Assembly: GCA_907163375.1 (NCBI GenBank)
Contig: CAJQUW010000942.1
Span: forward strand, 1-64,000
Length of the DNA stretch: 64,000 bases
Source: Prostheceraeus crozeri
Taxonomy: Eukaryota; Platyhelminthes; Polycladida; Euryleptidae
Direction: 5' to 3'
This document shows, in pieces, positions 39,690 to 61,953 of the stretch (positions are counted from its first letter, which is position 1; each line of letters starts with the position of its first letter). Both the position numbers and the translations under genes were made by a program. Under the pieces are notes generated by a model. That model was given only the letters and a program-made list of their open reading frames with translations. It searched no databases and was not told the DNA's origin.

Positions 39690-42062
39690 ACAGCGCGCCC
39701 CCCCCCTCTGGAACGACAGAGGTTGTGGTCTGTCGTGGTGTGCCGGCCAGGTTGGTTCACAACATGTTCGCTGACTCCCCCCCCCTCTGCAACGACAGAG
39801 TGTGAGACTCGAGTGAGTTGGTCCGACCGCCTGGTTGACTTGGGCGACCGTCCAGGTTGACGTGGGCGACCGTCTAGGTTGACGTGGGCGACCGTCTAGG
39901 TTGACATGGGCGACCGTCTAGGTTGTCGTGGATGGTGAAATGGCTGCCAGATTCGGATTCAGCGTAAAATTCTGCATCTGTGGTGTGATTTCCAGCTCAA
40001 TCGGCGAGAAAAACTGTTTCTTCAAATTTTGGCAGAGTTAAAATGTGGGACGTTTTGGTGTGTAGGGCCCAAACGTATCCTCGGATGAGAAAACGGAGGC
40101 CAGATTCGGATTCAGCGTGAAATTCTGCATCTGTATGGTGAATTTGAAAGCAATCGGAGAGAAAAAATTTTTCGCTGACGTCCCCCCCCCCTCTGGACAG
40201 CTTGCTTCGATTTTGGCTTCCAGTGGACGGATTTTGTCGTGCGATAGCTCGTTTGAAAGCTAAGAGTGAGACGAATTCAGTGAAAGAATCGGCTTGTTCC
40301 TATCTGTCTTCGTTTAGATGTGAGACGCCATTTAAGATTTTGGGACATTGGCGAAAAACGACAGAGTTAGAATTTGGGATGTTTTGGGCTGTAGCTTCAA
40401 AACGAACCATCGGATGGGAAAACGGATTTCAGATTCGGATTCAGCGTGAAATTCTGCATCTGTATGGTGAGTTTCAAGTCAATCGGAGAGAAAAAATTTT
40501 CAACATTTTTCGAAAAAACGACAGAGTTAGAATTTGGGACGTTTTGGTGTGTAGCACCCAAACGAAGCATCGGATGAGAAAACGGAGGCCAGATTCGGAA
40601 TCTACGTGAAATTTTGGGTTAGGAAGGACGTTTCCAGCGAAATCGGAGAGAAAAAATTTTTCGCTGACGTCCCCCCCCCCTCTGGACAGCTTGCTTCGAT
40701 TTTGGCTTCCAGTGGACGGATTTTGTCGTGCGATAGCTCGTTTGAAAGCTAAGAGTGAGACAAATTCAGTGAAAGAATCGGCTTGTTCCTATCTGTCTTC
40801 GTTTAGATGTGAGACGCCATTTAAGATTTTGGGACATTGGCGAAAAACGACAGAGTTAGAATTTGGGATGTTTTGGGCTCTAGCTTCAAAACGAAGCATC
40901 GGATGGGAAAACGGATTTCAGATTCGGATTCAGCGTGAAATTCTGCATCTGTATGGTGAGTTTCAAGTCAATCGGAGAGAAAAAATTTTCAACATTTTTC
41001 GAAAAAACGACAGAGTTAGAATTTGGGACGTTTTGGTGTGTAGCACCCAAACGAAGCATCGGATGAGAAAACGGAGGCCAGATTCGGAATCTACGTGAAA
41101 TTTTGGGTTAGGAAGGACGTTTCCAGCGAAATCGGAGAGAAAAAATTTTTCGCTGACGTCCCCCCCCCTTTGTTCTAACTTTGGTTCTAGTGGACGGATT
41201 TTGTTCGTTCGACTTGCATTGGAAAGAGGATGAAACACTGCTCGACCGCATTTTTCGTTGCGAGTCAATCGGAGCAGCCGTTCAAAAGTTAGAGCGGTTA
41301 CAAGATTTTAGGTCGGAGCTCGCTTACCTGAAAAAATCCTAAGTGTCAGAGTGACTTTGTATGGGTAAAATTTTGAAAATTTTCCAAAGTGTGGAATTTC
41401 GACCTGGGACCGTCACCAAAACATTTTTCATCAAATTTTGAAATTTCACTGACGTCCCCCCCCCTTTGTTCTAACTTTGGTTCTAGTGGACGGATTTTGT
41501 TCGTTCGACTTGCATTGGAAAGAGGATGAAACACTGCTCGACCGCATTTTTCGTTGCGAGTCAATCGGAGCAGCCGTTCAAAAGTTAGAGCGGTTACAAG
41601 ATTTTAGGTCGGAGCTCGCTTACCTGAAAAAATCCTAAGTGTCAGAGTGAGTTTGTATGGGTAAAATTTTGAAAATTTTCCAAAGTGTGGAATTTCGACC
41701 TGGGACCGTCACCAAAACATTTTTCATCAAATTTTGAAATTTCACTGACGTCCCCCCCCCCTTTGTTCTAACTTTGGTTCTAGTGGACGGATTTTGTTCG
41801 TTCGACTTGCATTGGAAAGAGGATGAAACACTGCTCGACCGCATTTTTCGTTGCGAGTCAATCGGAGCAGCCGTTCAAAAGTTAGAGCGGTTACAAGATT
41901 TTAGGTCGGAGCTCGCTTACCTGAAAAAATCCTAAGTGTCAGAGTGAGTTTGTATGGGAAAAATTTTGAAAATTTTCCAAAGTGTAGAATTTCGACCTGG
42001 GACCGTCACCAAAACATTTTTCATCAAATTTTGAAATTTCACTGACGTCCCCCCCCCTCTGG
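39690..42062 (+). repeat. Tandem array of C-tract-bearing units
   Basis: Eight runs of 8-10 C (near 39.70, 39.78, 40.19, 40.67, 41.16, 41.46, 41.75 and 42.05 kb), most preceded by GCTGACGT or ACTGACGT. Each run starts a unit of about 80-490 bp. Two related unit types share TAGTGGACGGATTTTGT or CAGTGGACGGATTTTGT. The longer type contains a ~140-bp sub-repeat (GACAGAGTTAGAATTTGGGA ... AGATTCGGATTCAGCGTGAA). The outermost part also has a short GTTGACGTGGGCGACCGTCT repeat. Apparent ORFs across these units are poorly protein-like and differ between unit types. Confidence 0.85.
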
Positions 42063-42610
42063 ACAGCTTGCTTCGATTTTGGCTTCCAGTGGACGGATTT
42101 TGTCGTGCGATAGCTCGTTTGAAAGCTAAGAGTGAGACAAATTCAGTGAAAGAATCGGCTTGTTCCTATCTGTCTTCGTTTAGATGTGAGATGCCATTTA
42201 AGATTTTGGGACATTGGCGAAAAACGACAGAGTTAGAATTTGGGACGTTTTGGGCTCTAGCTTCAAAACGAAGCATCGGATGGGAAAACGGATTTCAGAT
42301 TTGGAATCAGCGTCAGATTCTTTATCTGTATGGTGAGTTTCATGTCAATCGGAGAGTTTCAAGTCATCAGCGAGAAAAATTTTCAACATTTTTCGGAAAA
42401 ACGACAGAGTTAGAATTTTTGCGATGGCTGCCTACTGTAGAGCCAAAACGAAGCATCGGATGGGAAAACGGAGGCCAGATTCGGATTCAGCGTCAAATTC
42501 TACATGGAAATGGTGTATTTCCAGCTCAATCGGAGCACTAGAACCGGAGATAGACGGGATTTTTAGTGTTTGGATGATGGGTATTACGTCATCAGCTGAT
42601 CGCCACACAC

Positions 42611-42618
42611 TATATAAG
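42611..42618 (+). promoter_or_regulatory. TATA box of an inward transcript in the left TIR
   Basis: TATATAAG; a start about 30 nt downstream would give a short leader ending at a consensus 5' splice site (AG/GTAGGT, GT at 42667). No acceptor or protein is assigned. Confidence 0.5.
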
Positions 42619-43098
42619 CTGGGAACCGACGGAGACTTGTCATTTAGAGGAGAACGATTGTCAGAGGTAGGTCGTCTCTCTGAGCTCCGATGATAGCTTC
42701 GGACATTCCAAATTCCAAGTTTCTGTAAGAAACCGACTTAGAAAATTTCATTGCTGATATCAGCTAAGCCGTCAGACTTAGAGGTTCGCCAGGAGATGGC
42801 CTTCGTCTCCAGGCCATAAAAGACTCCAAAACTTTAAAGGCTCGTAACTTTGCTTCTACAAGTCCGTTTGACTTGATTCAAAAAAGGTTCGGTCGCTATT
42901 GACCTGCCCTAAGTGATGGACTACTTATAAAATTTCATAAGTAGTGCTAAAAAGTTGAAAATTTTAAATTCACTAGTTTTGGAGGTTTTCTGGGGTTTTC
43001 GACCCTGCTGAAGTCAATGAAAGCATTTTTAATGATGTCTGAGCCAGTCTTCTCATGGTATAAGCGGCTTTTCACTGAAAGCGAGCAAGACACGGAGA

Positions 43099-43326
43099 GT
43101 TTTGCTGTAATATTCCACTGACAGGGTGTTCCTTCGGGACGGCGGACGATGCCGTAGTGATAAGTGTGGCAAGGGAATGTGTCATATTTAAGACCGTAAC
43201 CGCTGGGACAACTCATGTCTCATGTTGGGCATTTGACACAGCTCTCAACGTAGCACTTTGAACGCCAATCGGTTGAGTCTTAGCTATCTTGTCATGGGTG
43301 GCCTCTAAACATCTCCATTGCAAAAC
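43099..43326 (+). ncRNA. Structured RNA domain, copy A
   Basis: Closed by a 7-bp helix GTTTTGC/GCAAAAC. Inside are the motifs shared with copies B, C and D: TGTAATA, GTTCC-TTCG-GGAC (a cUUCGg tetraloop in this sense), GGCGG...GCCGTAG, an AACC motif before a hairpin TGGGAC/GTCTCA (with a G-U pair), and ATGTTG...CAACGT. The G-U pairs and the UUCG loop favour transcription in the plus direction. Family unknown. Reading frames across it on the minus strand lack support. Confidence 0.7.
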
Positions 43327-43350
43327 GCTGGTGAATCAAGCTCTCTACGG

Positions 43351-43436
43351 CTTGCTATCAAGTAGATCAAAGCAATAACTTGGGATGTTTCCTCAAGGTT
43401 TTCAAGTATGCTGAGTTCAAATCTGCTATCAGATTT
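43351..43436 (+). ncRNA. Two CUAU-loop hairpins (H0, H1)
   Basis: CTTG-CTAT-CAAG (43351-43362) and AAATCTG-CTAT-CAGATTT (43419-43436): same loop, unrelated stems. Confidence 0.65.
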
Positions 43437-43694
43437 CAAATTTAACTAAGACTAAGGCAGCTTTGAGGGGTTAGATCCCAGCTACTGTTCACTACCTTTG
43501 ACTCGGCGTTGCTGTTACCACTTCGGGGCAGTGACAATGATGTCTTCAGCTGTAAAGAGCGGGTATCGGGGAAGATCTCTCACTTCCCTAGTGATCAGTA
43601 CAAGGCCTTCGGGCTGTCGACGGGATCGAGTGCCACTCACTACACTCAAATCTATCATTCCTCACTAAGTGTAAATTACTGACTATACATTTGT

Positions 43695-43753
43695 CCTGCT
43701 ATCAGGTTATTTTTGACTTGCTATCTAGTTGAATAGTCTCTTGCTATCAAGAG
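43695..43753 (+). ncRNA. Three CUAU-loop hairpins (H2-H4) preceding RNA copy C
   Basis: CCTG-CTAT-CAGG (43695-43706), ACTTG-CTAT-CTAGT (43716-43729, one mismatch) and CTCTTG-CTAT-CAAGAG (43738-43753). The same trio precedes copy D at 46.81-46.87 kb. Confidence 0.65.
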
Positions 43754-43766
43754 ATTCACTTCTACT

Positions 43767-43987
43767 CATAAAGCACATCATCGCTGTAATACCTCCTTTG
43801 CTCGAGCGTTCCTTCGGGACGGCGGGTACTGCCGTAGAGGGATTGTGTTGCACGGGTTGTTCGTCGTTTGTTAGACCGAAACCTCTGAGCCGTTGCTCAT
43901 GTTGGGCGTTCGACTTCATACTCAACGTGACGCTTTCTTTCGCCAGGTCAGAGTACTTCAGCCATTCGACAAAGGTTAGTCTTTATG
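43767..43987 (+). ncRNA. Structured RNA domain, copy C
   Basis: Closed by CATAAAG/CTTTATG. It has the cUUCGg hairpin, ACGGC/GCCGT hairpin, TGAGC-CGTT-GCTCA hairpin and the CATGTTG/CAACGTG helix with a U-G pair. Very similar to copy D; diverged from A and B. Confidence 0.72.
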
Positions 43988-44135
43988 ATATGGAGTAGAG
44001 TGAAATGTAATTCATTAGATGTCCCTTCAATGATTGCTCCCATGATAAACGTTGATGAGACAAATGAAATGATTCTCATCTTCCCTTTTCAATGATTGAA
44101 ATCTACTAACACACTACCGTATAATCGGCCACTAT

Positions 44136-44205
44136 GGGGCAAGACATGATAGAGCCTTCAATGCGCTTTGCCCTGGGCAGTCTTTAGACTGGCGAATACT
44201 ATCAT
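44136..44205 (+). ncRNA. HDV-like self-cleaving ribozyme, copy 1
   Basis: P1 GGGGCAA/TTGCCCT (44136-44142 with 44168-44174, first pair G-U). P2 ATGATAG/CTATCAT (44146-44152 with 44199-44205). P3 AGC/GCT with a 9-nt L3. P4 CAGTC-TTTA-GACTG (44178-44191). J4/2 is GCGAATA with the predicted catalytic C at 44193. The order P1-P2-P3-P3'-P1'-P4-P4'-P2' is the HDV double pseudoknot. L3 is longer than usual, so activity is less certain than for copy 2. It lies just upstream of the TATA box of the 88-aa ORF. Confidence 0.8.
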
Positions 44206-44206
44206 T

Positions 44207-44232
44207 AAGTTGAATCTGCTATCAGTCAACTT
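44207..44232 (+). ncRNA. CUAU-loop hairpin H5
   Basis: AAGTTGA(AT)CTG-CTAT-CAG-TCAACTT, directly downstream of ribozyme copy 1. Confidence 0.65.
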
Positions 44233-44256
44233 GAACGTTGCGTCGCATTAGAGGGG

Positions 44257-44264
44257 TATATAAA
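44257..44264 (+). promoter_or_regulatory. TATA box of the 88-aa TIR ORF
   Basis: TATATAAA, 27 nt before the ATG at 44291, implying a leader of at most a few nucleotides. Confidence 0.65.
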
Positions 44265-44290
44265 CCACTGCCTCTCATTCCATTTCAATC

Positions 44291-44557
44291 ATGCAGACGC
44301 CGAACAGTCAAGTCAGCTCTCCTCGCGGACCGCAGTTAAGGCCGCGAAATTTATTTGAGGAGTTTGTCAGGCTAGAGGAGCAAGACAGAGTTTTTAATAA
44401 TCTTGCTCGGATTGGCAATCCGATGACAGCAACTGCTGTCAATCCAACGGAATGGCGCTACATTCCACTTTTTAGCCATGTACCAGTTAGTGTGGAAGTC
44501 GACAGTGTTACCAAAGAGAGAGTCAAAGACTCTCTCAGTAGAATTGGTAGGGTGTAA
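44291..44557 (+). CDS. 88-aa protein of unknown function, left TIR copy
   Basis: Starts MQTPNSQVSSPRGPQLRPRN. The N-terminus is Pro/Ser/Arg-rich; the middle (RNLFEEFVRLEEQDRVF) is probably helical, with a short C-terminal region. No domain recognised and no membrane segment. Support: a TATA box 27 nt upstream, a good ATG, and perfect conservation in the right TIR. Caution: a 9-bp hairpin (GAGAGAGTC-AAA-GACTCTCTC, 44516-44536) overlaps its 3' end, and the region is rich in RNA structure, so a non-coding transcript is possible. The ribozyme at 44608 starts 51 nt after the stop and would cut this transcript. Confidence 0.5.
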   Translation: MQTPNSQVSSPRGPQLRPRNLFEEFVRLEEQDRVFNNLARIGNPMTATAVNPTEWRYIPLFSHVPVSVEVDSVTKERVKDSLSRIGRV

Positions 44558-44607
44558 GATGACATTACTCCCGAGAACGAACCATCGGCTCTCTTAAGGA
44601 CCACCAT

Positions 44608-44676
44608 GGGGCAAGACATGATAGAACCTCCTCGCGGTTTGCCCTGGGCAGTCTTCGGACTGGCGAATACTATCAT
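44608..44676 (+). ncRNA. HDV-like self-cleaving ribozyme, copy 2 (canonical)
   Basis: P1 of 7 bp: GGGGCAA (44608-44614) with TTGCCCT (44639-44645), with the G-U wobble at the predicted cleavage site (5' of G44608). P2 ATGATAG (44618-44624)/CTATCAT (44670-44676). P3 ACC/GGT (44626-44628 with 44636-44638). L3 TCCTCGC, whose C residues can form P1.1 with GG at 44646-44648. P4 CAGTC-TTCG-GACTG (44649-44662). J4/2 is GCGAATA, predicted general-acid C at 44664. The helix order and the L3 and J4/2 text match the hepatitis delta ribozyme family. Differences from copy 1 in P3 are compensatory. Confidence 0.92.
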
Positions 44677-44677
44677 T

Positions 44678-44703
44678 AAGTTGAATCTGCTATCAGTCAA
44701 CTT
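44678..44703 (+). ncRNA. CUAU-loop hairpin H6
   Basis: AAGTTGA(AT)CTG-CTAT-CAG-TCAACTT, one nucleotide after the ribozyme and just before RNA copy B. Confidence 0.65.
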
Positions 44704-44704
44704 G

Positions 44705-44942
44705 AACGTTGCAAATGAAGTTCGGTGTAATACTTCCTTTCGACGGGCGTTCCTGTAAAGGGCGGCGGTGAAACCCGTAGCTATGTATACCGCAAGGGAC
44801 ATTTGGCAATGGTCAATCTTGTTAAACCTCTCTGCGTCATGTTTGCAAGTGATTGCCTCTGTCTCAACGTAGTATGCATTCGCGCCAGGGCGACATTTAG
44901 CCAACTGTCGAAGGTTGCCTAAAACTTTCCATTGCATACGTT
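44705..44942 (+). ncRNA. Structured RNA domain, copy B
   Basis: Closed by AACGTTGC with GCATACGTT (one bulged A), a third, unrelated sequence for the same helix. Contains TGTAATACTTCC, CGTTCC...GGGCGGCGG...CCCGTAG, AACCTC, ATGTT...AACGT, GCGCCAGG and CGAAGGTT in the same order as copies A, C and D. It begins two nucleotides after hairpin H6, so ribozyme cleavage would yield an RNA starting ribozyme-H6-copy B. Confidence 0.72.
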
Positions 44943-45179
44943 ATGAGAACCATGAGTTCTACCTGTCTCTATCAATGAGACGAATTGATGAATGGAATGA
45001 AATGGGAGGACACTCACGCGCCACACGCAACATAACACACTTCTCTCTTTCGTAGTCTAACAAGCTCTTTACACATGGATCGCAGTCGATTGCTATCCCT
45101 GTATCAGAAGTGTAAGCTATCTTAATTTTATTTGACACTATTTCATCTATCATCATCGCCCATATGAAATGTTTTAAGA
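44943..45179. other. Spacer between RNA block and satellite
   Basis: No gene that I can support; a short hairpin GTCTC-TATCAAT-GAGAC lies near 44.96 kb. Confidence 0.4.
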
Positions 45180-46525
45180 TTTACAAGTTAGAAATAAAGT
45201 TTCAATAGTGTATGCGTTAGAAATAAAGGTGTAACTGTTTGTAAAAATAAGATCGCAAGATTTACTAGTTTACAAGTTAGACTAAGTGTAAATTAAAAAT
45301 AAAATTATAACTGTTTCAAGAGTTTACAAGTTAGAAATTAAGTTTTAGCTGTTTGTATATCAAAATAAAGTTTCAAGAGTTTACAAGTTAGAAATAAAGT
45401 TTCAATAGTGTATATGTTAGAAATAAAGGTGCAACTGTTTGTAAAAATAAGATCGCAAGATTTACTAGTTTACAAGTTAGACTAAGTGTAAATTAAAAAT
45501 AAATTATAACTGTTCACGTGTTAAAGCGTTGATGCAACGATGAACAATTAATAAGCTGAAAAGTTTTAGATTCACTTTAACATTATCATATGTTTACAGA
45601 TAGAAATGTATTACAGCAAAGCTACTTCATGAGTTAGTTTGCCAGGAGTGTATCATCTCAAACTTTTACTCCGACTGTGGAACATTGATTTCCATGATGA
45701 AGATTTAAATAGTTAGATTCGATGGCGAACAAGATTTACTAGTTTACAAGTTGGACAAAGTGTTCTACTATTTGTAAATGAAAGATATCATTTCAACAGT
45801 TTACCAGTTAGAAATAAAGTTTCAACAGTCTACAAGTTAAAAATAAAATTATAACTGTTTCAAGAGTTTACAAGTTAGAAATTAATTTTTAATGGTGTAT
45901 ACGTTAGAAATAAAGTTTTAGCTGTTTGTATATCAAAATGAAGTTTCAAGAGTTTACCAGTTAGAAATAAAATGAAGGTTCACCAGTTTACAAGTTAAGA
46001 ATAAAGTTCTATCTGTTTGTATGTTAGAAATAAAACAAAGTTTCAACCGTTTACAAGTTAAAATAAAGTTTTATCTGTTTGTATGTTAGAAATAAAACAT
46101 AGTTTCAACCGTTAACAAGTTAAAAATAAGGTTTCAATAGTTTGCGAGTTAAGAATGAAGTTTCAATAGTGTGTGTATATTAAGAATAAAGTTTTATCTG
46201 TTTGTATGTTATAAATAAAATGAAGCTTCACCAGTTTACAAGTTAAGAATAAAGTTCTATCTGCTTGTATGTTAGAAATAAAACAAAGTTTCAACCGTTA
46301 ACAAGTTAAAAATAAAGTTTCAATAGTTTACAAGTTAAGAATAAAGCTTCAATGGTGTATACGTTAGAAATAAAGTTTTAGCTGTTTGTATATCAAAATA
46401 AAGTTTCAAGAGTTTACAAATTAGAAATAAAGTTTCAATAGTGTATATGTTAGAAATAAAGGTGTGACTGTTATTAAAAAATAAGATCGCAAGATTTACT
46501 AGTTTACAAGTTAGACTAAGTGTAT
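45180..46525 (+). repeat. Satellite of ~40-bp units, left TIR
   Basis: Imperfect tandem copies of AGAAATAAAGTTTCAA plus AGTTTACAAGTT-like halves with variants (GTATGTTAG, TAAGAATAAAG). A rarer unit AAGATCGCAAGATTTACTAG recurs. Reading frames here are repeats, not genes. Confidence 0.9.
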
Positions 46526-47245: not shown

Positions 47246-50200
47246 ATGGATACGAGTATCACGAGAAAAATTGAATCTTATCGCGTCTCTGCCAAGATGG
47301 AGGAAACTCTCATTGAGCAATGTAAGTTTTTGTGTGATGGGGCAAGGATGCAGGTTGTGCTAATAAAACTCTTGAACTAACATCATTCGGTTACCATGTG
47401 TGTTGAGCATAGGAATTAATTTTCATAAACCTTTGAATAACATCAAGAATGTAAGAATCATATCCTTACTAATTTTCAACAAAAGACCCTTAACGTCTTT
47501 TTACTCCGCGATTTTCAAAAGCGAAGCTCATTTCTAAAATTTATAATGCACTCTAATATCTCCCTCCCTTTTTCAGTACAGCAGCGCATCATGAAGAGAG
47601 AACCTATTCCTGAAGGGGCACTTGGTCGAGCCTATGAACGACTGGGAATATGTAAGTATCTTAATGAATGAATGCTGTCATGTGTTCTGTATCATCATGG
47701 CTGATAGCATGCATTCTATCATTCATCAATCTCATCTCTTTTCCACTCTACAGTTTTGGCAAGGCAGGAGAAGTGGGAGGAAGTCGCGAGGCGGAAATAT
47801 GATGACGATTTTCCGACCCTACCCTCTCGCCCATCTACCTCAGCTCCACCATCTGAGCAGCCATCCACCTCGGGCATGGTCATCGCCCAACCTCCACCAC
47901 CACCCATACCTGCTCCTCGTCGCCGCATCCCTCCAACACCCAAGCCGCGGACTCTTCCACCCTCGGCTCGCATCCCCCTTCTACCTCCTCTTGAACCATC
48001 GGTGATGGTGGAAGTAGATTCTCTTGATGGTAAGTTACAGTGATGGTAAAGGGGGACAAGGACTTAAACAAAACGCACGCCACACTTGGAATTGAATAGT
48101 CATGTTACTGATCGCTTTCCTTCCTTTTCTCAACAGATCTCGCAACGGTATTTCTGGGCGACAACGTTCCTAACCGCCCCGCCAACTCTCACATACCACC
48201 ACCGGCAACAGCAGGCGACTTCCCTCCCATCTCCAACAAGTCGCTAGAAATGGAGATCGAGGTGTGCGACCACACCATTAAAATGGTAGGTTGAAGATTT
48301 CCTCACTCATCTCCCTCGAACGTTTGGCTAATAGCATCTTCCTCAATTTCAGGCATCGACTTCATCACCAAAGCCCTCCTTTCTCAAGGAAAGTTTACAG
48401 CTATTGAGTGAAGGTAAGTTGTAACAAAACACTAAGACTTTAATAGAGATGATAGAATGATTTCTCTTTTAGGTGATGCTAGTTCCAGCTCAACACTATC
48501 GCGGGAAGGCGACGAGCGGGAATGTGCTGACTGTGGGCACATCTTCACGAGGAAACGCGATCTGCTCCGACACATCAGACAACGTGTGTGTCAACCCAAG
48601 TCGCCATCAATCTCCCGAGGTGAGGATGACTCTATTGAACACGTCTCCTTTACTTGCGACTTCTGCATTCAATCATTTGAGTCACATTTTGAATTATCTT
48701 CACATAGACTTCGACATACACACACGAACGATACCTACACCAACGGTACCTCCTCTATCCGACTCTCTGAAATATCAATGAACAATTTAGTGAGGAACTA
48801 CCAGATGGACTCCTCAGAAACCATTGCTAACTTTGAGGAATGGTTTCATCAAAATTCATCCTTGATAGATGCGCTCTTTAGAAATTTAGACAACTTTAGA
48901 ATAAAAGCGCTCATCTACTTAAAAATAAAATATGTAAAAATCGATCATCATACTGGTCAAATAGTAGAGCGGTTGGAGTTTCACATACCCTCCTCTCCTG
49001 CTACAGAAGTAATCGATGAAGATTCTTGGTTAAATTTTCATATTCAAGGACTAAAACTAAATATAGTTAAATTCAACGAACGCGATAGTGGCCTCATTTT
49101 TGATGGTATAGAATCTGCCAAGTTTAAAATCAATTTGCTAGAAAGTTATAGTGGGCGAGGCTCCTTCAATCTTCCAAAAATTTTAAAAGACAAAAAAGCA
49201 GTCATTTCTGTAGATTGCGAATCGCAATGTTTTAAGTATGCAGTGTTATCCATTCTCCACTACAATGATGTAAATGATAATCGTTTCCGTAGAAGTAAGT
49301 ATCAAGAGTGGGAAAATGAATTAAAGTTTGATGACTGCAATAGTGAAGACATGAAATTGAAAGATATAGAGAAATTTGAGAAATTAAATAAAATTAAGAT
49401 AGTGGTTCACGTCTGGGAGAAAGGGTTAAAAGGCGTTAGGTATAACAACCGCCAAAGTAGCTATGATCGAGTTGTCAACCTTTTGCTAGTGTATGAGGAC
49501 AATACTCAACAGTGGCATTACTGTGGTATTCCAAAAATTCATCGCCTTTACAACCATATACAAAAATCGATTAAAGGTGAACATTTCATATGCGACCGCT
49601 GCACACGACCATTTTGGTCGAAAAATAAATTTCTAAGTCATTATGAATGGTGCAAGCGGGGTAAACTACAAATAGAGCGCATGCCCAAAGATAAGGAGTT
49701 TTCATATAGAGAGAATGGTGATGAACTAAGTCCCCTGCGTGTCATCTATGCTGACATCGAATGCTATATCGATGATATCATCCACAAGCCAGCAGCCATT
49801 TCCTGCTATGAAGTATGGCATGATCACTTTAGGAGTAGGCAAAATAAAATGCGCGTCTGGCAAGGTGAGGATTGTATTTACCAATTCCTACAATTCCTCG
49901 AACAGGCTGTAAAATTTCAACAAAAGTATGATGGTGAACTCTATCGCAGATCATTGCATATGACAGCAGATGATCAAGCAAAATTTGATAGCTGCAACGT
50001 TTGCCCCAAATGTAGGAAAACATTTGACGATGATAAGATTAAGAAAGTGCGCGACCATGATCACATCACTGGTAAATTTAGAAACGCACTCTGTTCAAAA
50101 TGTAATTTTTCACTTAGGATGAAGCGGCGTACATTACCCGTCATTTTCCATAATTTCAAGGGCTACGACAGCCATATGATAATAAAAGGAGGTTTAGGTC

Positions 50201-52251
50201 AAATGAAAGAGTGGAAGCTTGATGTAATAGCGCAAACGAGAGAGAAGTTTATGGCCATGACAGCAAAAGTGCCTGTCGATAAAACTAAAGAAAATAAGAC
50301 GGTCTATTTTGATATAAAATTTTTAGATTCCTACCAATTTATGACTGCATCACTGGCCTCTCTCGTGCAAAATCTAAAGTCTCTTCCACTAACACAAAAT
50401 CTTAAGAAACAATATCCAAATCTAACCGATGAAGTCATCACACGGAAAGGAGTCTTTCCATATGCATATTTTGATGCAATTAGTAAACTCGGCGAGACTT
50501 CTCTTCCGCCCATAGATAAATTTAAAAATGATTTGATCGGTGCAGAATGTAAGACCGAAGATTATGATCATGCACAAGATGCATGGATAAAATTTGACTG
50601 CCATACATTTGGTGAATATATGATTGCCTACCTTAAGTTAGATGTATTTTTGCTGGCTGATGTATTTCAGGAGTTTCGACGAGTGGCATTAGAAGAAGAT
50701 AAGTTAGATCCCGTCCACTTTGTCAGTCTGCCAGCCATGTCATTTAAGTCTGCTTTTAAAATGACTGGTGAGACCATTCATCTCTTACAAGATCCAGAGA
50801 TGTATAATTTATTTGAGCGAGGAATTCGCGGTGGTCTCACATTTGTAAATAAACATAGGTTAAAATCAAAAATAGTAGGCAATGACCAGACTCATCTGAA
50901 GTATTATGACCAAAATAATTTGTATGGTAGTTCATTATCCAAACCGCTACCTCACTCTGAGTTTAGCTGGTTAGATGATAGTGAAATTCAACATTTCTCC
51001 AACCCTTCCAACATACTAGCAATTCCAGATGAAGGTGATTGGGGATATTATTTTGAGATAGATCTAATCTATCCAAATAATATTAAACATAAAACCGTGG
51101 ATTTTCCACTCGCACCCGAATCAGGTGAAGTGACCAAAGATATGTTTTCCGACTTTATGAAACAATTTCATAAAGATTTAGAATCATGCGGTCAACCCGA
51201 CTATAAGCCTTGCCGCAAACTTTTACTCACCCAGTATGATAAAGAAAACTATCTAGTCCACTTTAGCATCTTAAAATTTTATTTAGAAATGGGTATGATT
51301 TTAAAAAGAGTTCACCGCATTATTAAATTTAGACAGAAAGCCTTCCTCAAACCATATATTGATAGCAACAGCCAGAAACGTGCACTAGCCCAAAATAATT
51401 TTGAAAAAGATTTTTATAAATATAAGAACAACAGTCTATTTGGTAAGACGATGGAGGATGTTAGAAAGCGCGTAAACTACAAACTAGTTAATGATGATCA
51501 AAAGTATCACAAATTGGTCTCATCACCTCTATTCATCGATAGAGACATTATCGATGAGGATCTTGTAGGTATTAAAATGATAAAATCTGAAGTTGAGTTG
51601 TGCAAACCCATCTATATTGGTCAAGCTGTACTAGATTACTCTAAGCTTGAAATGTACCAACTCTTTTATAAAATACTAAAACCATGTCCTCTCGTAAAAG
51701 AGGTTCGTTTGTTGGGTGGTGATACAGATAGTTTCTTCTTAGGTATTACCACTCAAAAAGATTTAAATTTCAATGAAGTAGGAAAATCTTTAGAAAGATA
51801 TTTTGATACATCAAATTATCCTACTGATCACCCACTCTACTCCATCAAAAATAAGGCAAAACTTGGCTGCTTTAAGGATGAGACAGCAGGGAAGGAAATA
51901 GATGAAATGATTCTCCTCCGTCCAAAAATGTACAGTATGAAATTAAAGGATAGCGACGATAGTATTAAGCGTGCTAAAGGCATATCAAGATCATTGGTCT
52001 CTAACATGAAACATAAGAATTTCAGGAAAGCCTATAGGAATAAAAATATAACGTTTGTCAATATGACAATCTTAAAATCTAAGTCGCATGAGATCAAAAC
52101 TCATACTTTTAGGAAACGGGCGCTTTCAGCATGGGAGGATAAGAGGTGCTGGTTAGAACACAACATATCTCTTCCACATGGACATCCTGACACAAACATA
52201 CCACCACCCAAAAGAATTAAACTCACACTACCACATTCAGGAGACGTGTAA
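47246..52251 (+). CDS. Protein-primed DNA polymerase B with N-terminal extensions, spliced
   Basis: Coding exons 47246-47321, 47577-47651, 47754-48029, 48137-48285, 48353-48413 and 48473-52251. All have GT/AG borders and matching phases, giving 1,471 codons; a non-coding exon 1 ends at 46791. Order: Pro-rich N-terminus; C2H2 finger CADCGHIFTRKRDLLRHIRQ and a second (CDFC...H...H); a Cys/His domain with CFKYAVLSILH and WHYCGIPKIH; a third finger (CDRC); exonuclease I YADIEC; endonuclease-VII-like CPKC...DHDHITG...CSKC; exonuclease II NFKGYDSHM; exonuclease III YLKLDVFLLADV; motif A YYDQNNLYGSS; motif B NNSLFGKTMEDV; motif C GDTDSFF. All catalytic residues are present. Its job is replication of the element's linear ends. 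Confidence 0.88.
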
Positions 52252-53799: not shown

Positions 53800-56630
53800 T
53801 TTACAAATAGCTATACCTTTATTTCTAGCATACAAAGGCTAAAACTCTATTTCTAACGCATACACTATTAAAACTTTATTTTTAACTTGTAAACTGCTAA
53901 AAACTTTATTTTTTAATATGGAAACTGATGAAACTTTATTTCTAGCATACAAACAGATAAAACTTCATTTCTAACATACAAACAGATAGAACTTTATTCT
54001 TAACTTGTAAACTTAAACAGATAGAACTTTATTCTTAACTTGTAAACTGGTGAAATTTCATTCTATTTCTAACATATAAACAGATAGAACTTTATTCGTA
54101 ACATACGCACTATTGAAACTTTATTCTTAACTTGTAAACTATTGAAACTTTATTTTAACTTGTAAACGGTTAAAACTTTGTTTTATTTCTATCATACAAA
54201 CAGATAAAACTTTATTCTTAATATACACACACTATTGAAACTTCATTCTTAACTTGTAAACTATTGAAACTTTATTTTTAACTTGTTAACGGTTGAAACT
54301 TTGTTTTATTTCTAACACACAAATAGCTTAAACTTTATTTCCAACATACACACTGTTGAAACTTTATTTTTAATCTGTAAACTGTTGAAACTATATCTTT
54401 CACTTACAAATAGTAGAACGCTAAGTCTAACTTGCAAACTAGTAAATCTTGCGATCTTATTTTAACAAACAGATAAAACTCTATTTCTAACATATACACT
54501 ATTGAAACTTTATTTCTAACTTGTAAACTCTTGAAACTTTATTTTTAACTTGTTAACGGTTGAAACTTTATTCTATTTCTAACATGCAAACAGATAAAAC
54601 TTTATTCTTAACTTGTAAACTGATGAAACTTCATTTTATTTCTAACATACAAGCTGATAAAACTTTATTGTTAACTTGTAAACTGGTGAAGCTTCATTTT
54701 ATTTATAACATACAAACAGATAAAACTTTATTCCTAATATACACACTATTGAAACTTCATTCTTAACTCGCAAACTATTGAAACTTTATTTTTAACTTGT
54801 TAACGGTTGAAACTATGTTTTATTTCTAACATACAAACAGATAAACTTTATTTTTAACTTGTAAACGGTTGAAACTTTGTTTTATTTCTAACATACAAAC
54901 AGATAGAACTTTATTCTTAACTTGTAAACTGTTGAAATTTCATTCTATTTCTAACATATAAACAGATAGAACTTTATTCGTAACATACGCACTATTGAAA
55001 CTTTATTCTTAACTTGTAAACTATTGAAACTTTATTTTTAACTTGTAAACGGTTAAAACTTTGTTTTATTTCTATCATACAAACAGATGAAACTTTATTC
55101 TTAATATATACACACTATTGAAACTTCATTCTTAACTTGTAAACTATTGAAACTTTATTTTTAACTTGTTAACGGTTGAAACTTTGTTTTATTTCTAACA
55201 CACAAACAGCTTAAACTTTATTTCCAACATACACACTGTTGAAACTTTATTTTTAATCTGTAAACTGTTGAAACTATATCTTTCACTTACAAATAGTAGA
55301 ACGCTAAGTCTAACTTGCAAACTAGTAAATCTTGCGATCTTATTTTAACAAACAGATAAAACTCTATTTCTAACATATACACTATTGAAACTTTATTTCT
55401 AACTTGTAAACTCTTGAAACTTTATTTTTAACTTGTTAACGGTTGAAACTTTATTCTATTTCTAACATACAAACAGATAGAACTTTATTCTTAACTTGTA
55501 AACTGTTGAAACTTCATTTTATTTCTAACATACAAGCAGATAGAACTTTATTCTTAACTTGTAAACTGGTGAAGCTTCATTTTATTTATAACATACAAAC
55601 AGATAAAACTTTATTCTTAATATACACACACTATTGAAACTTCATTCTTAACTCGCAAACTATTGAAACCTTATTTTTAACTTGTTAACGGTTGAAACTA
55701 TGTTTTATTTCTAACATACAAACAGATAAAACTTTATTTTAACTTGTAAACGGTTGAAACTTTGTTTTATTTCTAACATACAAACAGATAGAACTTTATT
55801 CTTAACTTGTAAACTGGTGAACCTTCATTTTATTTCTAACTTGTAAACTCTTGAAACTTCATTTTGATATACAAACAGCTAAAACTTTATTTCTAACGTA
55901 TACACCATTAAAAATTAATTTCTAACTTGTAAACTCTTGAAACAGTTATAATTTTATTTTTAACTTGTAGACTGTTGAAACTTTATTTCTAACTGGTAAA
56001 CTGTTGAAATGATATCTTTCATTTACAAATAGTAGAACACTTTGTCCAACTTGTAAACTAGTAAATCTTGTTCGCCATCGAATCTAACTATTTAAATCTT
56101 CATCATGGAAATCAATGTTCCACAGTCGGAGTAAAAGTTTGAGATGATACACTCCTGGCAAACTAACTCATGAAGTAGCTTTGCTGTAATACATTTCTAT
56201 CTGTAAACATATGATAATGTTAAAGTGAATCTAAAACTTTTCAGCTTATTAATTGTTCATCGTTGCATCAACGCTTTAACACGTGAACAGTTATAATTTA
56301 TTTTTAATTTACACTTAGTCTAACTTGTAAACTAGTAAATCTTGCGATCTTATTTTTACAAACAGTTGCACCTTTATTTCTAACATATACACTATTGAAA
56401 CTTTATTTCTAACTTGTAAACTCTTGAAACTTTATTTTGATATACAAACAGCTAAAACTTAATTTCTAACTTGTAAACTCTTGAAACAGTTATAATTTTA
56501 TTTTTAATTTACACTTAGTCTAACTTGTAAACTAGTAAATCTTGCGATCTTATTTTTACAAACAGTTACACCTTTATTTCTAACGCATACACTATTGAAA
56601 CTTTATTTCTAACTTGTAAATCTTAAAACA
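53800..56630 (-). repeat. Satellite of ~40-bp units, right TIR (expanded)
   Basis: Same units inverted but about twice as long. It includes a large internal duplication: the block near 54.06-54.83 kb resembles that near 54.95-55.70 kb. Confidence 0.9.
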
Positions 56631-56857
56631 TTTCATATGGGCGATGATGATAGATGAAATAGTGTCAAATAAAATTAAGATAGCTTACACTTCTGATACA
56701 GGGATAGCAATCGACTGCGATCCATGTGTAAAGAGCTTGTTAGACTACGAAAGAGAGAAGTGTGTTATGTTGCGTGTGGCGCGTGAGTGTCCTCCCATTT
56801 CATTCCATTCATCAATTCGTCTCATTGATAGAGACAGGTAGAACTCATGGTTCTCAT

Positions 56858-57095
56858 AACGTATGCAATGGAAAGTTTTAGGCAACCTTCGACAGTTGGC
56901 TAAATGTCGCCCTGGCGCGAATGCATACTACGTTGAGACAGAGGCAATCACTTGCAAACATGACGCAGAGAGGTTTAACAAGATTGACCATTGCCAAATG
57001 TCCCTTGCGGTATACATAGCTACGGGTTTCACCGCCGCCCTTTACAGGAACGCCCGTCGAAAGGAAGTATTACACCGAACTTCATTTGCAACGTT
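56858..57095 (-). ncRNA. Structured RNA domain, copy B, right TIR
   Basis: Mirror of 44705-44942; same closing helix. Confidence 0.7.
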
Positions 57096-57123
57096 CAAGT
57101 TGACTGATAGCAGATTCAACTTA

Positions 57124-57192
57124 ATGATAGTATTCGCCAGTCCGAAGACTGCCCAGGGCAAACCGCGAGGAGGTTCTATCATGTCTTGCCCC
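57124..57192 (-). ncRNA. HDV-like ribozyme, copy 2, right TIR
   Basis: Exact mirror of 44608-44676; predicted cleavage 5' of the G complementary to C57192. Confidence 0.92.
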
Positions 57193-57242
57193 ATGGTGGT
57201 CCTTAAGAGAGCCGATGGTTCGTTCTCGGGAGTAATGTCATC

Positions 57243-57509
57243 TTACACCCTACCAATTCTACTGAGAGAGTCTTTGACTCTCTCTTTGGTAACACTGTCG
57301 ACTTCCACACTAACTGGTACATGGCTAAAAAGTGGAATGTAGCGCCATTCCGTTGGATTGACAGCAGTTGCTGTCATCGGATTGCCAATCCGAGCAAGAT
57401 TATTAAAAACTCTGTCTTGCTCCTCTAGCCTGACAAACTCCTCAAATAAATTTCGCGGCCTTAACTGCGGTCCGCGAGGAGAGCTGACTTGACTGTTCGG
57501 CGTCTGCAT
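57243..57509 (-). CDS. 88-aa protein of unknown function, right TIR copy
   Basis: Translation identical to the left copy (44291-44557), with the same TATA box upstream (57536-57543). Conserved identity reflects TIR homogenisation, so it does not by itself prove coding. Transcribed inward, towards the element centre. Confidence 0.5.
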   Translation of the reverse strand: MQTPNSQVSSPRGPQLRPRNLFEEFVRLEEQDRVFNNLARIGNPMTATAVNPTEWRYIPLFSHVPVSVEVDSVTKERVKDSLSRIGRV

Positions 57510-57594
57510 GATTGAAATGGAATGAGAGGCAGTGGTTTATATACCCCTCTAATGCGACGCAACGTTCAAGTTGACTGATAGCAGATTCAACTTA

Positions 57595-57664
57595 ATGATA
57601 GTATTCGCCAGTCTAAAGACTGCCCAGGGCAAAGCGCATTGAAGGCTCTATCATGTCTTGCCCC
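57595..57664 (-). ncRNA. HDV-like ribozyme, copy 1, right TIR
   Basis: Mirror of 44136-44205, with the same long L3 and TTTA-type P4 loop. Confidence 0.8.
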
Positions 57665-57812
57665 ATAGTGGCCGATTATACGGTAGTGTGTTAGTAGATT
57701 TCAATCATTGAAAAGGGAAGATGAGAATCATTTCATTTGTCTCATCAACGTTTATCATGGGAGCAATCATTGAAGGGACATCTAATGAATTACATTTCAC
57801 TCTACTCCATAT

Positions 57813-58033
57813 CATAAAGACTAACCTTTGTCGAATGGCTGAAGTACTCTGACCTGGCGAAAGAAAGCGTCACGTTGAGTATGAAGTCGAACGCCCAACA
57901 TGAGCAACGGCTCAGAGGTTTCGGTCTAACAAACGACGAACAACCCGTGCAACACAATCCCTCTACGGCAGTACCCGCCGTCCCGAAGGAACGCTCGAGC
58001 AAAGGAGGTATTACAGCGATGATGTGCTTTATG
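57813..58033 (-). ncRNA. Structured RNA domain, copy C, right TIR
   Basis: Mirror of 43767-43987. Confidence 0.7.
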
Positions 58034-58473
58034 AGTAGAAGTGAATCTCTTGATAGCAAGAGACTATTCAACTAGATAGCAAGTCAAAAATAACCTGATA
58101 GCAGGACAAATGTATAGTCAGTAATTTACACTTAGTGAGGAATGATAGATTTGAGTGTAGTGAGTGGCACTCGATCCCGTCGACAGCCCGAAGGCCTTGT
58201 ACTGATCACTAGGGAAGTGAGAGATCTTCCCCGATACCCGCTCTTTACAGCTGAAGACATCATTGTCACTGCCCCGAAGTGGTAACAGCAACGCCGAGTC
58301 AAAGGTAGTGAACAGTAGCTGGGATCTAACCCCTCAAAGCTGCCTTAGTCTTAGTTAAATTTGAAATCTGATAGCAGATTTGAACTCAGCATACTTGAAA
58401 ACCTTGAGGAAACATCCCAAGTTATTGCTTTGATCTACTTGATAGCAAGCCGTAGAGAGCTTGATTCACCAGC

Positions 58474-58701
58474 GTTTTGCAATGGAGATGTTTAGAGGCC
58501 ACCCATGACAAGATAGCTAAGACTCAACCGATTGGCGTTCAAAGTGCTACGTTGAGAGCTGTGTCAAATGCCCAACATGAGACATGAGTTGTCCCAGCGG
58601 TTACGGTCTTAAATATGACACATTCCCTTGCCACACTTATCACTACGGCATCGTCCGCCGTCCCGAAGGAACACCCTGTCAGTGGAATATTACAGCAAAA
58701 C
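58474..58701 (-). ncRNA. Structured RNA domain, copy A, right TIR
   Basis: Mirror of 43099-43326. Confidence 0.7.
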
Positions 58702-59181
58702 TCTCCGTGTCTTGCTCGCTTTCAGTGAAAAGCCGCTTATACCATGAGAAGACTGGCTCAGACATCATTAAAAATGCTTTCATTGACTTCAGCAGGGTCG
58801 AAAACCCCAGAAAACCTCCAAAACTAGTGAATTTAAAATTTTCAACTTTTTAGCACTACTTATGAAATTTTATAAGTAGTCCATCACTTAGGGCAGGTCA
58901 ATAGCGACCGAACCTTTTTTGAATCAAGTCAAACGGACTTGTAGAAGCAAAGTTACGAGCCTTTAAAGTTTTGGAGTCTTTTATGGCCTGGAGACGAAGG
59001 CCATCTCCTGGCGAACCTCTAAGTCTGACGGCTTAGCTGATATCAGCAATGAAATTTTCTAAGTCGGTTTCTTACAGAAACTTGGAATTTGGAATGTCCG
59101 AAGCTATCATCGGAGCTCAGAGAGACGACCTACCTCTGACAATCGTTCTCCTCTAAATGACAAGTCTCCGTCGGTTCCCAG

Positions 59182-59189
59182 CTTATATA
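59182..59189 (-). promoter_or_regulatory. TATA box, mirror copy in the right TIR
   Basis: Exact mirror of 42611-42618, directed leftward (inward). Confidence 0.5.
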
Positions 59190-59735
59190 GTGTGTGGCGA
59201 TCAGCTGATGACGTAATACCCATCATCCAAACACTAAAAATCCCGTCTATCTCCGGTTCTAGTGCTCCGATTGAGCTGGAAATACACCATTTCCATGTAG
59301 AATTTGACGCTGAATCCGAATCTGGCCTCCGTTTTCCCATCCGATGCTTCGTTTTGGCTCTACAGTAGGCAGCCATCGCAAAAATTCTAACTCTGTCGTT
59401 TTTCCGAAAAATGTTGAAAATTTTTCTCGCTGATGACTTGAAACTCTCCGATTGACATGAAACTCACCATACAGATAAAGAATCTGACGCTGATTCCAAA
59501 TCTGAAATCCGTTTTCCCATCCGATGCTTCGTTTTGAAGCTAGAGCCCAAAACGTCCCAAATTCTAACTCTGTCGTTTTTCGCCAATGTCCCAAAATCTT
59601 AAATGGCATCTCACATCTAAACGAAGACAGATAGGAACAAGCCGATTCTTTCACTGAATTTGTCTCACTCTTAGCTTTCAAACGAGCTATCGCACGACAA
59701 AATCCGTCCACTGGAAGCCAAAATCGAAGCAAGCT

Positions 59736-61953
59736 GTCCAGAGGGGGGGGGGGACGTCAGTGAAATTTCAAAATTTGATGAAAAATGTTTTGGTGACGGT
59801 CCCAGGTCGAAATTCTACACTTTGGAAAATTTTCAAAATTTTTCCCATACAAACTCACTCTGACACTTAGGATTTTTTCAGGTAAGCGAGCTCCGACCTA
59901 AAATCTTGTAACCGCTCTAACTTTTGAACGGCTGCTCCGATTGACTCGCAACGAAAAATGCGGTCGAGCAGTGTTTCATCCTCTTTCCAATGCAAGTCGA
60001 ACGAACAAAATCCGTCCACTAGAACCAAAGTTAGAACAAAGGGGGGGGGGACGTCAGTGAAATTTCAAAATTTGATGAAAAATGTTTTGGTGACGGTCCC
60101 AGGTCGAAATTCCACACTTTGGAAAATTTTCAAAATTTTTCCCATACAAACTCACTCTGACACTTAGGATTTTTTCAGGTAAGCGAGCTCCGACCTAAAA
60201 TCTTGTAACCGCTCTAACTTTTGAACGGCTGCTCCGATTGACTCGCAACGAAAAATGCGGTCGAGCAGTGTTTCATCCTCTTTCCAATGCAAGTCGAACG
60301 AACAAAATCCGTCCACTAGAACCAAAGTTAGAACAAAGGGGGGGGGACGTCAGTGAAATTTCAAAATTTGATGAAAAATGTTTTGGTGACGGTCCCAGGT
60401 CGAAATTCCACACTTTGGAAAATTTTCAAAATTTTACCCATACAAACTCACTCTGACACTTAGGATTTTTTCAGGTAAGCGAGCTCCGACCTAAAATCTT
60501 GTAACCGCTCTAACTTTTGAACGGCTGCTCCGATTGACTCGCAACGAAAAATGCGGTCGAGCAGTGTTTCATCCTCTTTCCAATGCAAGTCGAACGAACA
60601 AAATCCGTCCACTAGAACCAAAGTTAGAACAAAGGGGGGGGGACGTCAGTGAAAATTTTTTCTCTCCGATTGACTTGAAACTCACCATACAGATAAAGAA
60701 TTTCACGCTGATTCCAAATCTGAAATCCGTTTTCCCATCCGATGCTTCGTTTTGAAGCTAGAGCCCAAAACGTCCCAAATTCTAACTCTGTCGTTTTTTG
60801 CCAATGTCCCAAAATCTTAAATGGTGTCTCACATCTAAACGAAGACAGATAGGAACAAGCCGATTCTTTCATTGAATTTGTCTCACTCTTAGCTTTCAAA
60901 CGAGCTATCGCACGCCAAAATCCGTCCACTGGAAGCCAAAATCGAAGCAAGCTGTCCAGAGGGGGGGGGGACGTCAGCGAAAAATTTTTTCTCTCCGATT
61001 TCGCTGGAAACGTCCTTCCTAACCCAAAATTTCACGTAGATTCCGAATCTGGCCTCCGTTTTCTCATCCGATGCTTCGTTTGGGTGCTACACACCAAAAC
61101 GTCCCAAATTCTAACTCTGTCGTTTTTTCGAAAAATGTTGAAAATTTTTTCTCTCCGATTGACTTGAAACTCACCATACAGATGCAGAATTTCACGCTGA
61201 ATCCGAATCTGAAATCCGTTTTCCCATCCGATGGTTCGTTTTGAAGCTACAGCCCAAAACATCCCAAATTCTAACTCTGTCGTTTTTCGCCAATGTCCCA
61301 AAATCTTAAATGGCGTCTCACATCTAAACGAAGACAGATAGGAACAAGCCGATTCTTTCACTGAATTTGTCTCACTCTTAGCTTTCAAACGAGCTATCGC
61401 ACGACAAAATCCGTCCACTGGAAGCCAAAATCGAAGCAAGCTGTCCAGAGGGGGGGGGGACGTCAGCGAAAAATTTTTTCTCTCCGATTGCTTTCAAATT
61501 CACCATACAGATGCAGAATTTCACGCTGAATCCGAATCTGGCCTCCGTTTTCTCATCCGAGGATACGTTTGGGCCCTACACACCAAAACGTCCCACATTT
61601 TAACTCTGCCAAAATTTTGAAGAAACAGTTTTTCTCGCCGATTGAGCTGGAAATCACACCACAGATGCAGAATTTTACGCTGAATCCGAATCTGGCAGCC
61701 ATTTCACCATCCACGACAACCTAGACGGTCGCCCATGTCAACCTAGACGGTCGCCCACGTCAACCTAGACGGTCGCCCACGTCAACCTGGACGGTCGCCC
61801 AAGTCAACCAGGCGGTCGGACCAACTCACTCGAGTCTCACACTCTGTCGTTGCAGAGGGGGGGGGGAGTCAGCGAACATGTTGTGAACCAACCTGGCCGG
61901 CACACCACGACAGACCACAACCTCTGTCGTTCCAGAGGGGGGGGGCGCGCTGT
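59736..61953 (-). repeat. Mirror array of G-tract-bearing units
   Basis: Eight G runs (near 59.75, 60.05, 60.34, 60.64, 60.96, 61.45, 61.86 and 61.94 kb), inverse of the left array. One unit is about 161 bp shorter than its left counterpart. Confidence 0.85.

Follow-up and report, generated by a model that had tools for sequence, protein, structure and literature searches.

HDV-like ribozymes are known in animals mostly as processors of retrotransposon 5' ends. A candidate of this family lies in the long inverted arms of a DNA element of the flatworm Prostheceraeus crozeri, in the 3' UTR of a short gene, and we asked what it might do there. The window, by which we mean the whole stretch analysed, comprises 64,000 nucleotides (contig CAJQUW010000942.1, positions 1 to 64,000); its features are listed in Table 1.

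Table 1. Features of the 64,000-nt window.
Feature	Position	Strand	Basis or remark
HDV-like self-cleaving ribozyme (predicted), canonical	44608..44676	+	sequence, Rfam, descriptor, copy conservation
Canonical ribozyme (predicted), right arm	57124..57192	-	sequence identical to 44608 copy
Degenerate outer ribozyme copy	44136..44205	+	lacks P3/L3 and a recognisable upstream stem-loop
Degenerate outer ribozyme copy, right arm	57595..57664	-	sequence comparison
Histone-type 3' stem-loop, 26 nt	44582..44607	+	homologous boxes match RF00032; stem 44587-44602
Histone-type 3' stem-loop, right arm	57193..57218	-	mirror copy
Hairpin AAGTTGA-AT-CTG-CTAT-CAG-TCAACTT	44678..44703	+	one base after P2 3' strand; cassette 3' part
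88-aa gene (MQTPNSQVSS...)	44291..44557	+	ORF; 3' UTR ends in stem-loop and ribozyme
88-aa gene, right arm	57243..57509	-	ORF
Presumed TATA box TATATAAA of 88-aa gene	44257..44264	+	34 nt before ATG
1264-aa protein between arms	48457..52251	+	C2H2 fingers, endonuclease VII motif, PolB-like C-terminal part
Left inverted arm, in pieces	39777..46343	.	self-comparison of window
Right inverted arm, in pieces	55457..61865	.	self-comparison of window

The 69 nt at 44608-44676 (+) fit the HDV double pseudoknot throughout, with sequence for every helix. P1 (GGGGCAA/TTGCCCT, 7 bp) pairs 44608-44614 with 44639-44645 and has G1.U at the cleavage site. The remaining segments are J1/2 (GAC), P2 (ATGATAG/CTATCAT), P3 (ACC/GGT), L3 (TCCTCGC), J1/4 (GGG), P4 (CAGTC/GACTG) with a TTCG loop, and J4/2 (GCGAATA), which contains C44664. 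Inspection of the sequence and a motif descriptor both gave the helix order P1-P2-P3-L3-P1-P1.1-P4-J4/2-P2, and the order and size of the helices claimed by an earlier, sequence-only reading of this DNA were confirmed. The cut site is predicted to lie between T44607 and G44608, with C44664 as the predicted catalytic base.

When a 701-nt stretch was compared with 4227 Rfam families (cmscan, E-value mode), the ribozyme matched RF02682 (26.5 bits, E 0.0093, model positions 1-74 of 74) and RF00094 (27.5 bits, E 0.075), and the sole unrelated match was to MAT2A_F (E 0.83). In a 5.2-kb stretch, only the two HDV models matched at E values up to 5 (E 0.069 and 0.56). At the Rfam gathering score there were no matches anywhere in the window, and the top RF02682 score among the cassettes described below was 29.0, against a gathering score of 44. 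The sequence-only reading had named the lack of a model hit above threshold as a refutation; taken literally this counts against it, the covariance models matching, but below gathering. RF02682 and RF00094 each cover narrow groups. The descriptor, which was hand-written and shaped with the 44608 hit in view, picked out just two places in the window, 44608 (+) and 57192 (-), and none in 20 dinucleotide shuffles searched on both strands. Free-energy folding alone, with a program that cannot model pseudoknots, did not single out the ribozyme (z -1.05). A chance fold was ruled out by the Rfam matches, the shuffles and the copy counts given below; as a feature predicted from the sequence, the ribozyme is real.

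The outer copies at 44136 (+) and 57664 (-) retained P1, P2, P4 and J4/2; their P3/L3 segment, longer by a base, is AGCCTTCAATGCGCT, and the descriptor failed on them. The inverted arms are long, one stretch of 4295 nt being 100% complementary, and their outer end is not fixed because inverted similarity runs on outwards; nor is a target-site duplication. In the window, and likewise on contigs C5, C9, C33 and C82, the cassette clusters of both arms point inwards. On the last of these, loci L035 and L036 carry a PolB ORF in each half, facing one another, in a near-palindrome. Five copies of a 22-bp tandem repeat were observed beside poly-C tracts in the outer part of each arm (39824-39931 and 61711-61818).

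The 1264-aa protein between the arms matched PF02945 (E 5.8e-07), and the C-terminal part of its alignment has an invariant GGDTDS, which we take to be a PolB-type motif. PF03175 matched 2 of the 12 members of this alignment and is precomputed for at least 10 homologues among the 100 listed; the window's own protein was unmatched by it at E values up to 10. Above chance level that protein matches only endonuclease VII and zinc fingers, and a PDB search with the PolB alignment returned zinc-finger proteins as the only matches. A scan of 12 element ORFs, which are not the full gene set, found no rve integrase, packaging ATPase or jelly-roll capsid, and gave one weak Ycf2 match (E 0.0015). The element resembles Polintons and adintoviruses in its PolB-type gene and inverted repeats, and differs from them in having no integrase or capsid gene among the 12 ORFs scanned.

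These results bear on three claims of the sequence-only reading. The results support its claim that an HDV-family ribozyme lies within the inverted arms of an element carrying a PolB-like gene. The four ribozymes that it counted in the element proved to be two canonical and two degenerate copies in the window. Its term Polinton-type is unproven, with no integrase, ATPase or capsid in the ORFs scanned and no PF03175 match in the window's protein; PolB element with long inverted arms is the name to use.

Free viral relatives of the element were sought by pattern. In IMG/VR, the PolB protein pattern retrieved 2 stretches and the alignment pattern 23, none of which was confirmed as such a relative. 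The ribozyme core pattern retrieved 0 stretches. Two stem-loop-plus-L3 patterns retrieved 10 and 7 stretches with just two stem types, none HDV-like on inspection, although a 7-bp P1 was possible in 3 of the 17. A phage collection gave only one weak, unrelated match.

Within the animal's own genome (2,048,925,868 bases in 14,165 contigs), the pattern GGGGCAAGACATGATAGANCC, a 21-base ribozyme piece with one base free, matched 12,849 times (6579 forward, 6270 reverse), and the reversed control 0 times. Copies of the ribozyme motif number in the thousands. Among the named records listed, the COI of this genome comes closest to those of the polyclad flatworms Pseudostylochus intermedius (71%) and Stylochus (70%), and a metagenome relative reaches 91%, so a flatworm host of this kind is probable. 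An RF02682 search of the same genome at E up to 0.001 gave no match with 62 of 81,278 candidates scored; control genomes also gave none, so the search is uninformative. A flank search of selected loci yielded 120 places, of which 8 with another core (43.4 kb in the window, and relatives) were dropped, leaving 112 copies. These were drawn from loci in which at least one copy matches GGGGCAAGACATGATAGANCC exactly, and the 5' strand is biased towards conservation because the loci were picked by that exact match.

The pairings, whose loss in related elements the sequence-only reading had named as a sign against a ribozyme, were mostly kept in these flank-chosen copies: all ribozyme pairs and the J4/2 C were retained in 88 of the 112, and in 101 when the P2 terminal pair was allowed to be open. 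Among the 2464 ribozyme pair cells, 1 had changed but still paired, 24 were broken and 5 gapped, and compensatory change was almost absent because the copies are too alike. Variants common to at least two copies occurred at 1 of 44 paired sites (the P2 terminal pair) versus 6 of 25 unpaired sites (Fisher p 0.008); with single-copy variants included, the counts were 12 of 44 and 13 of 25 (p 0.067), both p values being rough since the 112 copies are related and not independent. The frequently variable sites were J1/2 C10, P2 A11, L3 position 4 and P4-loop positions 3 and 4, with fewer variants at the last G of J1/4 and at the nucleotide that follows the catalytic C. The nucleotides expected to matter in an HDV fold, namely the catalytic J4/2 C and those of L3 and P1.1, were conserved: L3 C3, L3 G6, G39 and A59 were constant in 112/112 copies, and L3 U1, L3 C2, G40 and C57 each deviated in a single copy (111/112 kept).

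Directly upstream of the ribozyme lies a second motif, which the sequence-only reading missed, as it did the placing of each copy in a gene's 3' UTR. In the window it reads CCATC-GGCTCT-CTTA-AGGACC-ACCAT and ends at the predicted cleavage site. This copy carries a C-A mismatch at stem pair 3, where most copies have AGGGCC; the common RNA form of the 26 nt before the cut is CCAUC-GGCUCU-CUUA-AGGGCC-ACCAU. It has a 6-bp GGYYCU/AGRRCC stem, a 4-nt loop, a CCA 5' flank and an ACC tail, as expected of a histone 3' stem-loop, and its first loop base is C, where RF00032 has U. RF00032 did not match the window's own copy in the 701-nt and 5.2-kb scans. It matched 3 of 3 cassettes at locus L009 (18.9, 18.1 and 18.1 bits) and 11 of the 12 cassettes at loci L020, L022, L028, L059 and L065 (17.3-23.1 bits, below the gathering score of 34 like all RF00032 scores; best E 0.019), and the 3' portion of RF00032 is aligned to ribozyme sequence. 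Each of those 11 matches begins 26 nt before G1, and there was no other in 21.8 kb on both strands. The twelfth cassette (L022, 2272) has its stem in another register, and copies in a different register occur at both L022 and L045. Of the 12 cassettes at these five loci, 7 are also listed for RF02682 at E values of 5 or less.

A regular expression for the stem-loop, written after the fact and not requiring pairing, gave 107 matches at 105 distinct places on both strands of 321 kb (the window and the loci, which had been chosen for the ribozyme). All 105 places adjoin a ribozyme, 104 of them with exactly 5 nt between stem and G1, and in mononucleotide shuffles the expression matched 0.005 times per 64-kb strand. 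Six pairs were intact in 101 of the 112 copies, and pair 4 had changed from U.G to C-G in five. In a 161-nt stretch of the window, the minimum-energy fold preferred another hairpin over the mismatched stem-loop. The position, order and spacing of these predicted motifs can be read directly from the DNA.

Together with the hairpin that follows it, the ribozyme belongs to a cassette common to three gene classes: some 37 nt precede the cut, and behind the 69-nt ribozyme come some 40 nt that include the hairpin. The pair cells of this hairpin in the 112 copies were 1109 the same, 1 changed but pairing, 8 broken and 2 gapped, and the L009 copy folded at -7.7 kcal/mol (z -1.27). At L009, tandem ORFs of 388, 88 and 84 aa are each followed by a cassette, with ribozymes at 3179, 3655 and 4178. 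Other loci have one to four cassette copies; L008 has four, the 84-aa gene being doubled. In all 41 copies classed as 88-aa (25) or 84-aa (16), the stem-loop lies 27-44 nt past the stop, and a TATA motif lies 34-39 or 48 nt before the ATG (39 nt in 21 of the 25 copies of the 88-aa class). For the large first gene (n=14), the distance from stop to stem-loop was 94-117 nt in 12 copies and 22 nt in two. Twelve further ORFs fit none of the three classes. The 88-aa protein has two metagenome homologues, also of 88 aa (95% and 68-70% identity), and no histone match was found in a Pfam scan of the element's genes.

Histone mRNA ends have a CCA flank, a 6-bp stem, a 4-nt loop and an ACC tail, with the cut about 5 nt after the stem, and such ends are the products of a large protein-RNA machine. 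Histone genes are short, with a TATA box and a stem-loop shortly past the stop. The cassette shares those 3'-end and gene features (RF00032), its cut being a predicted one, and its ribozyme stands where histone mRNAs have the U7 snRNP downstream element. A ribozyme located in a gene's 3' UTR behind a histone-type stem-loop points to mRNA 3'-end formation and not to R2-like 5'-end release, and two RNA motifs kept at a set distance from each other behind different genes are most simply explained if the ribozyme creates the mRNA end and the stem-loop gives this end its function. Our preferred reading, to which we give a probability of roughly 0.7, is that self-cleavage would give the mRNAs histone-like 3' ends that lack poly(A) and can be used by SLBP, with no need of the U7 snRNP. 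The odds also lean, by less, towards a natural form of mRNA 3'-end formation absent from the literature that we searched, in which a ribozyme cut 5 nt past an SLBP-type stem-loop would bypass the U7 snRNP and CPSF73 and join S-phase translation.

The stem-loop, HDV-like ribozyme and hairpin would end each of one to four tandem genes in the arms of the PolB element. The small gene would be transcribed by RNA polymerase from its own TATA promoter, and the 3' UTR ribozyme would cut the nascent RNA 5 nt past the stem-loop, a position given by the sequence. The mRNA would then end in the stem-loop plus ACCAU, or ACCUA for the first gene, without poly(A), U7 snRNP or CPSF73, which would be the geometry of a mature replication-dependent histone mRNA. 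Host SLBP would presumably bind the stem-loop, leading to export, stability and translation. SLBP-type histone mRNAs are used in S phase, and expression would on that account be coupled to DNA synthesis; more speculatively, such coupling would suit an element with its own DNA polymerase. The downstream RNA would retain the ribozyme at a 5'-OH end, and the 3' hairpin might, again speculatively, aid ribozyme folding or prevent mispairing of P2. HDV-like cleavage leaves a 2',3'-cyclic phosphate instead of a 3'-OH, and the cyclic-phosphate end may affect decay enzymes. Cleavage, transcription, SLBP binding and S-phase coupling are the parts of this scheme that we infer.

Several observations stand against the mechanism. 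Every Rfam score for either motif is below gathering, and the copies are too alike to provide compensatory evidence for the ribozyme. The window's stem-loop is mismatched and unmatched by RF00032, and the outer copies are degenerate. In 12 of the 14 copies of the large first gene, the stem-loop stands as far as 94-117 nt past the stop, and the 3' UTR may contain an intron. The window's PolB gene has no cassette, but has an AATAAA 291 nt past its stop. If the mechanism is true, a ribozyme placed where histone mRNAs are cleaved would replace a large protein-RNA machine in a minimal and natural way, a selfish DNA element would have gained a route into S-phase expression, and mRNAs that lack poly(A) could be studied in a clean model provided by nature.

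Other functions were weighed against this reading. HDV-like ribozymes of R2 and L1Tc/ingi stand at the 5' end of the element and free it from a cotranscript, and 5'-end release is the role reported for R2 and L1Tc in the available passages of PMC8256844. An R2-type use, in which the ribozyme would free the 5' end of the downstream RNA, from the element or the next gene, and perhaps aid its translation, the stem-loop being incidental, is improbable here. The first cassettes of tandem sets do have genes after them; however, both short gene kinds possess their own TATA box, and past the last L009 cassette there are repeats, with no plus-strand ORF of at least 60 aa in the 1.5 kb scanned. A ribozyme serving a 5' end would have no use for the roughly 37 nt by which the common block extends upstream of the cut, and all 105 stem-loop places are located at a cut. 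R2-like release is disfavoured by the gene order and by this upstream block.

Intragenic HDV-like ribozymes have also been suggested to control expression (PMC8256844, in the passages available). An off-switch of this kind, in which a cut in the 3' UTR would lower the mRNA unless inhibited and a normal poly(A) site would lie farther downstream, is similarly improbable. It would leave the histone-type stem-loop and the fixed 5-nt spacing unexplained, and AATAAA or ATTAAA was found between -150 and +600 in just 1 of 17 cassettes from six sources, versus 7.5 of 17 expected from mononucleotide shuffles, the copies being related.

A role at the DNA level, such as a replication origin, a protein site or a recombination hot spot in the arms, might merely resemble RNA motifs, and the inverted-arm location and the near identity of the copies are in keeping with it. 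We consider this very unlikely, as the cassettes lie on the sense strand after genes in the annotated loci, shared variants mostly spare the RNA pairs, and matches to the HDV model and to the histone stem-loop model adjoin each other.

Synonymous changes made up 20 of 45 variants in the 88-aa ORF (16 distinct copies), 27 of 63 in the 84-aa ORF (17 copies) and 15 of 51 in the open frame across the cassette (42 copies), a modest difference; among variants in at least two copies they were 11 of 25, 17 of 35 and 6 of 20, with gapped copies in the counts (7/16, 9/17 and 32/42, respectively) and no neutral expectation computed. That the block is a coding exon (PENEPSALLRATMGQDMIEPPRGLPWAVFGLANTIIKLNLLSVNLNV) with the RNA folds as by-products is scarcely credible: an open frame does span the block in L009 cassettes 2 and 3 and in others, it has a Kozak-like GCCACCATGG, and its third-position variants (21/51) are not far below those of the real ORFs (22/45 and 31/63), but the first-gene class reads CCACCTAGG, with a stop at the would-be start, TA occupies the two would-be-start bases in 24 of 112 copies, the block frame at L009 differs from that of the 84-aa gene, and the outer window copy contains an extra base. 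The first-gene-class stop weighs most in this judgement, to which the synonymous counts add modest support.

The preferred reading, mRNA 3'-end formation by the ribozyme, was also compared with known systems. The R2 and L1Tc/ingi ribozymes share the double pseudoknot and likewise occur in many copies in a mobile element, whereas the cassette ribozymes follow a histone-type stem-loop in the 3' UTRs of genes carried by a DNA element. In the parts of the sources available, theta ribozymes of gut phages are HDV-like and often cut directly 3' of a tRNA (PMC10879173). Their carriers are DNA viruses and, as predicted for the cassette, the cut makes the 3' end of a structured RNA, but they belong to bacterial viruses and tRNAs and the cassette to an animal, mRNAs and a histone-type stem-loop. 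Chilo iridescent virus, a eukaryotic DNA virus, carries an HDV-like ribozyme, with no link to a stem-loop mentioned in the passages available (PMC8256844). The schistosome Sm-alpha/Sj-alpha elements are likewise flatworm mobile DNA with very abundant self-cleaving ribozymes, but these are described, in the available part of PMC2770079, as hammerheads in SINE-like retroelements. An HDV ribozyme has been fused 3' of a histone stem-loop in vitro to obtain an exact end, and the SLBP-bound SL26 RNA of the same work is 26 nt long, as is the cassette stem-loop (PMC12775136, in its accessible text).

Among the matches listed for the literature on Polintons, Mavericks and adintoviruses, the accessible text held no ribozyme of the cassette's kind. 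The terms HDV-like ribozyme and Polinton never occurred together in a search that most subscription papers lay outside. Among the matches listed for histone stem-loop, ribozyme and SLBP, likewise in their accessible text, no natural combination was found. Priority for the combination of stem-loop and ribozyme is not proven.

Further features were observed in the arms and at related loci. At L009 3045-3105, just past the stop of the large first gene, GTAAGT...TTGCAG resembles a 3' UTR intron. Upstream of the first gene, L009 1640-1800 and the window at about 43500-43660 are alike by eye and seemingly G+C- and hairpin-rich; Rfam gave no match in this part of the window in the 5.2-kb scan. The sense strand of the left arm has recurrent hairpins with TG-CTAT-CA as their closing sequence, at 43354, 43425, 43698, 43743, 44218, 44689, 46833 and 46856 (+), the first six having mirror copies on the (-) strand, and those at 44218 and 44689 have just 2 pairs beside G-C before a bulge. 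One member of this set is the hairpin that follows the ribozyme, and its loop could compete for the P2 strand. A lone hairpin resembling the set is present at 7821 (+), and another at 51366 (-). A second conserved block, with a like hairpin and a different core, lies at 43330-43440 with its mirror at about 58370-58450, and was seen at 8 places in the window and loci.
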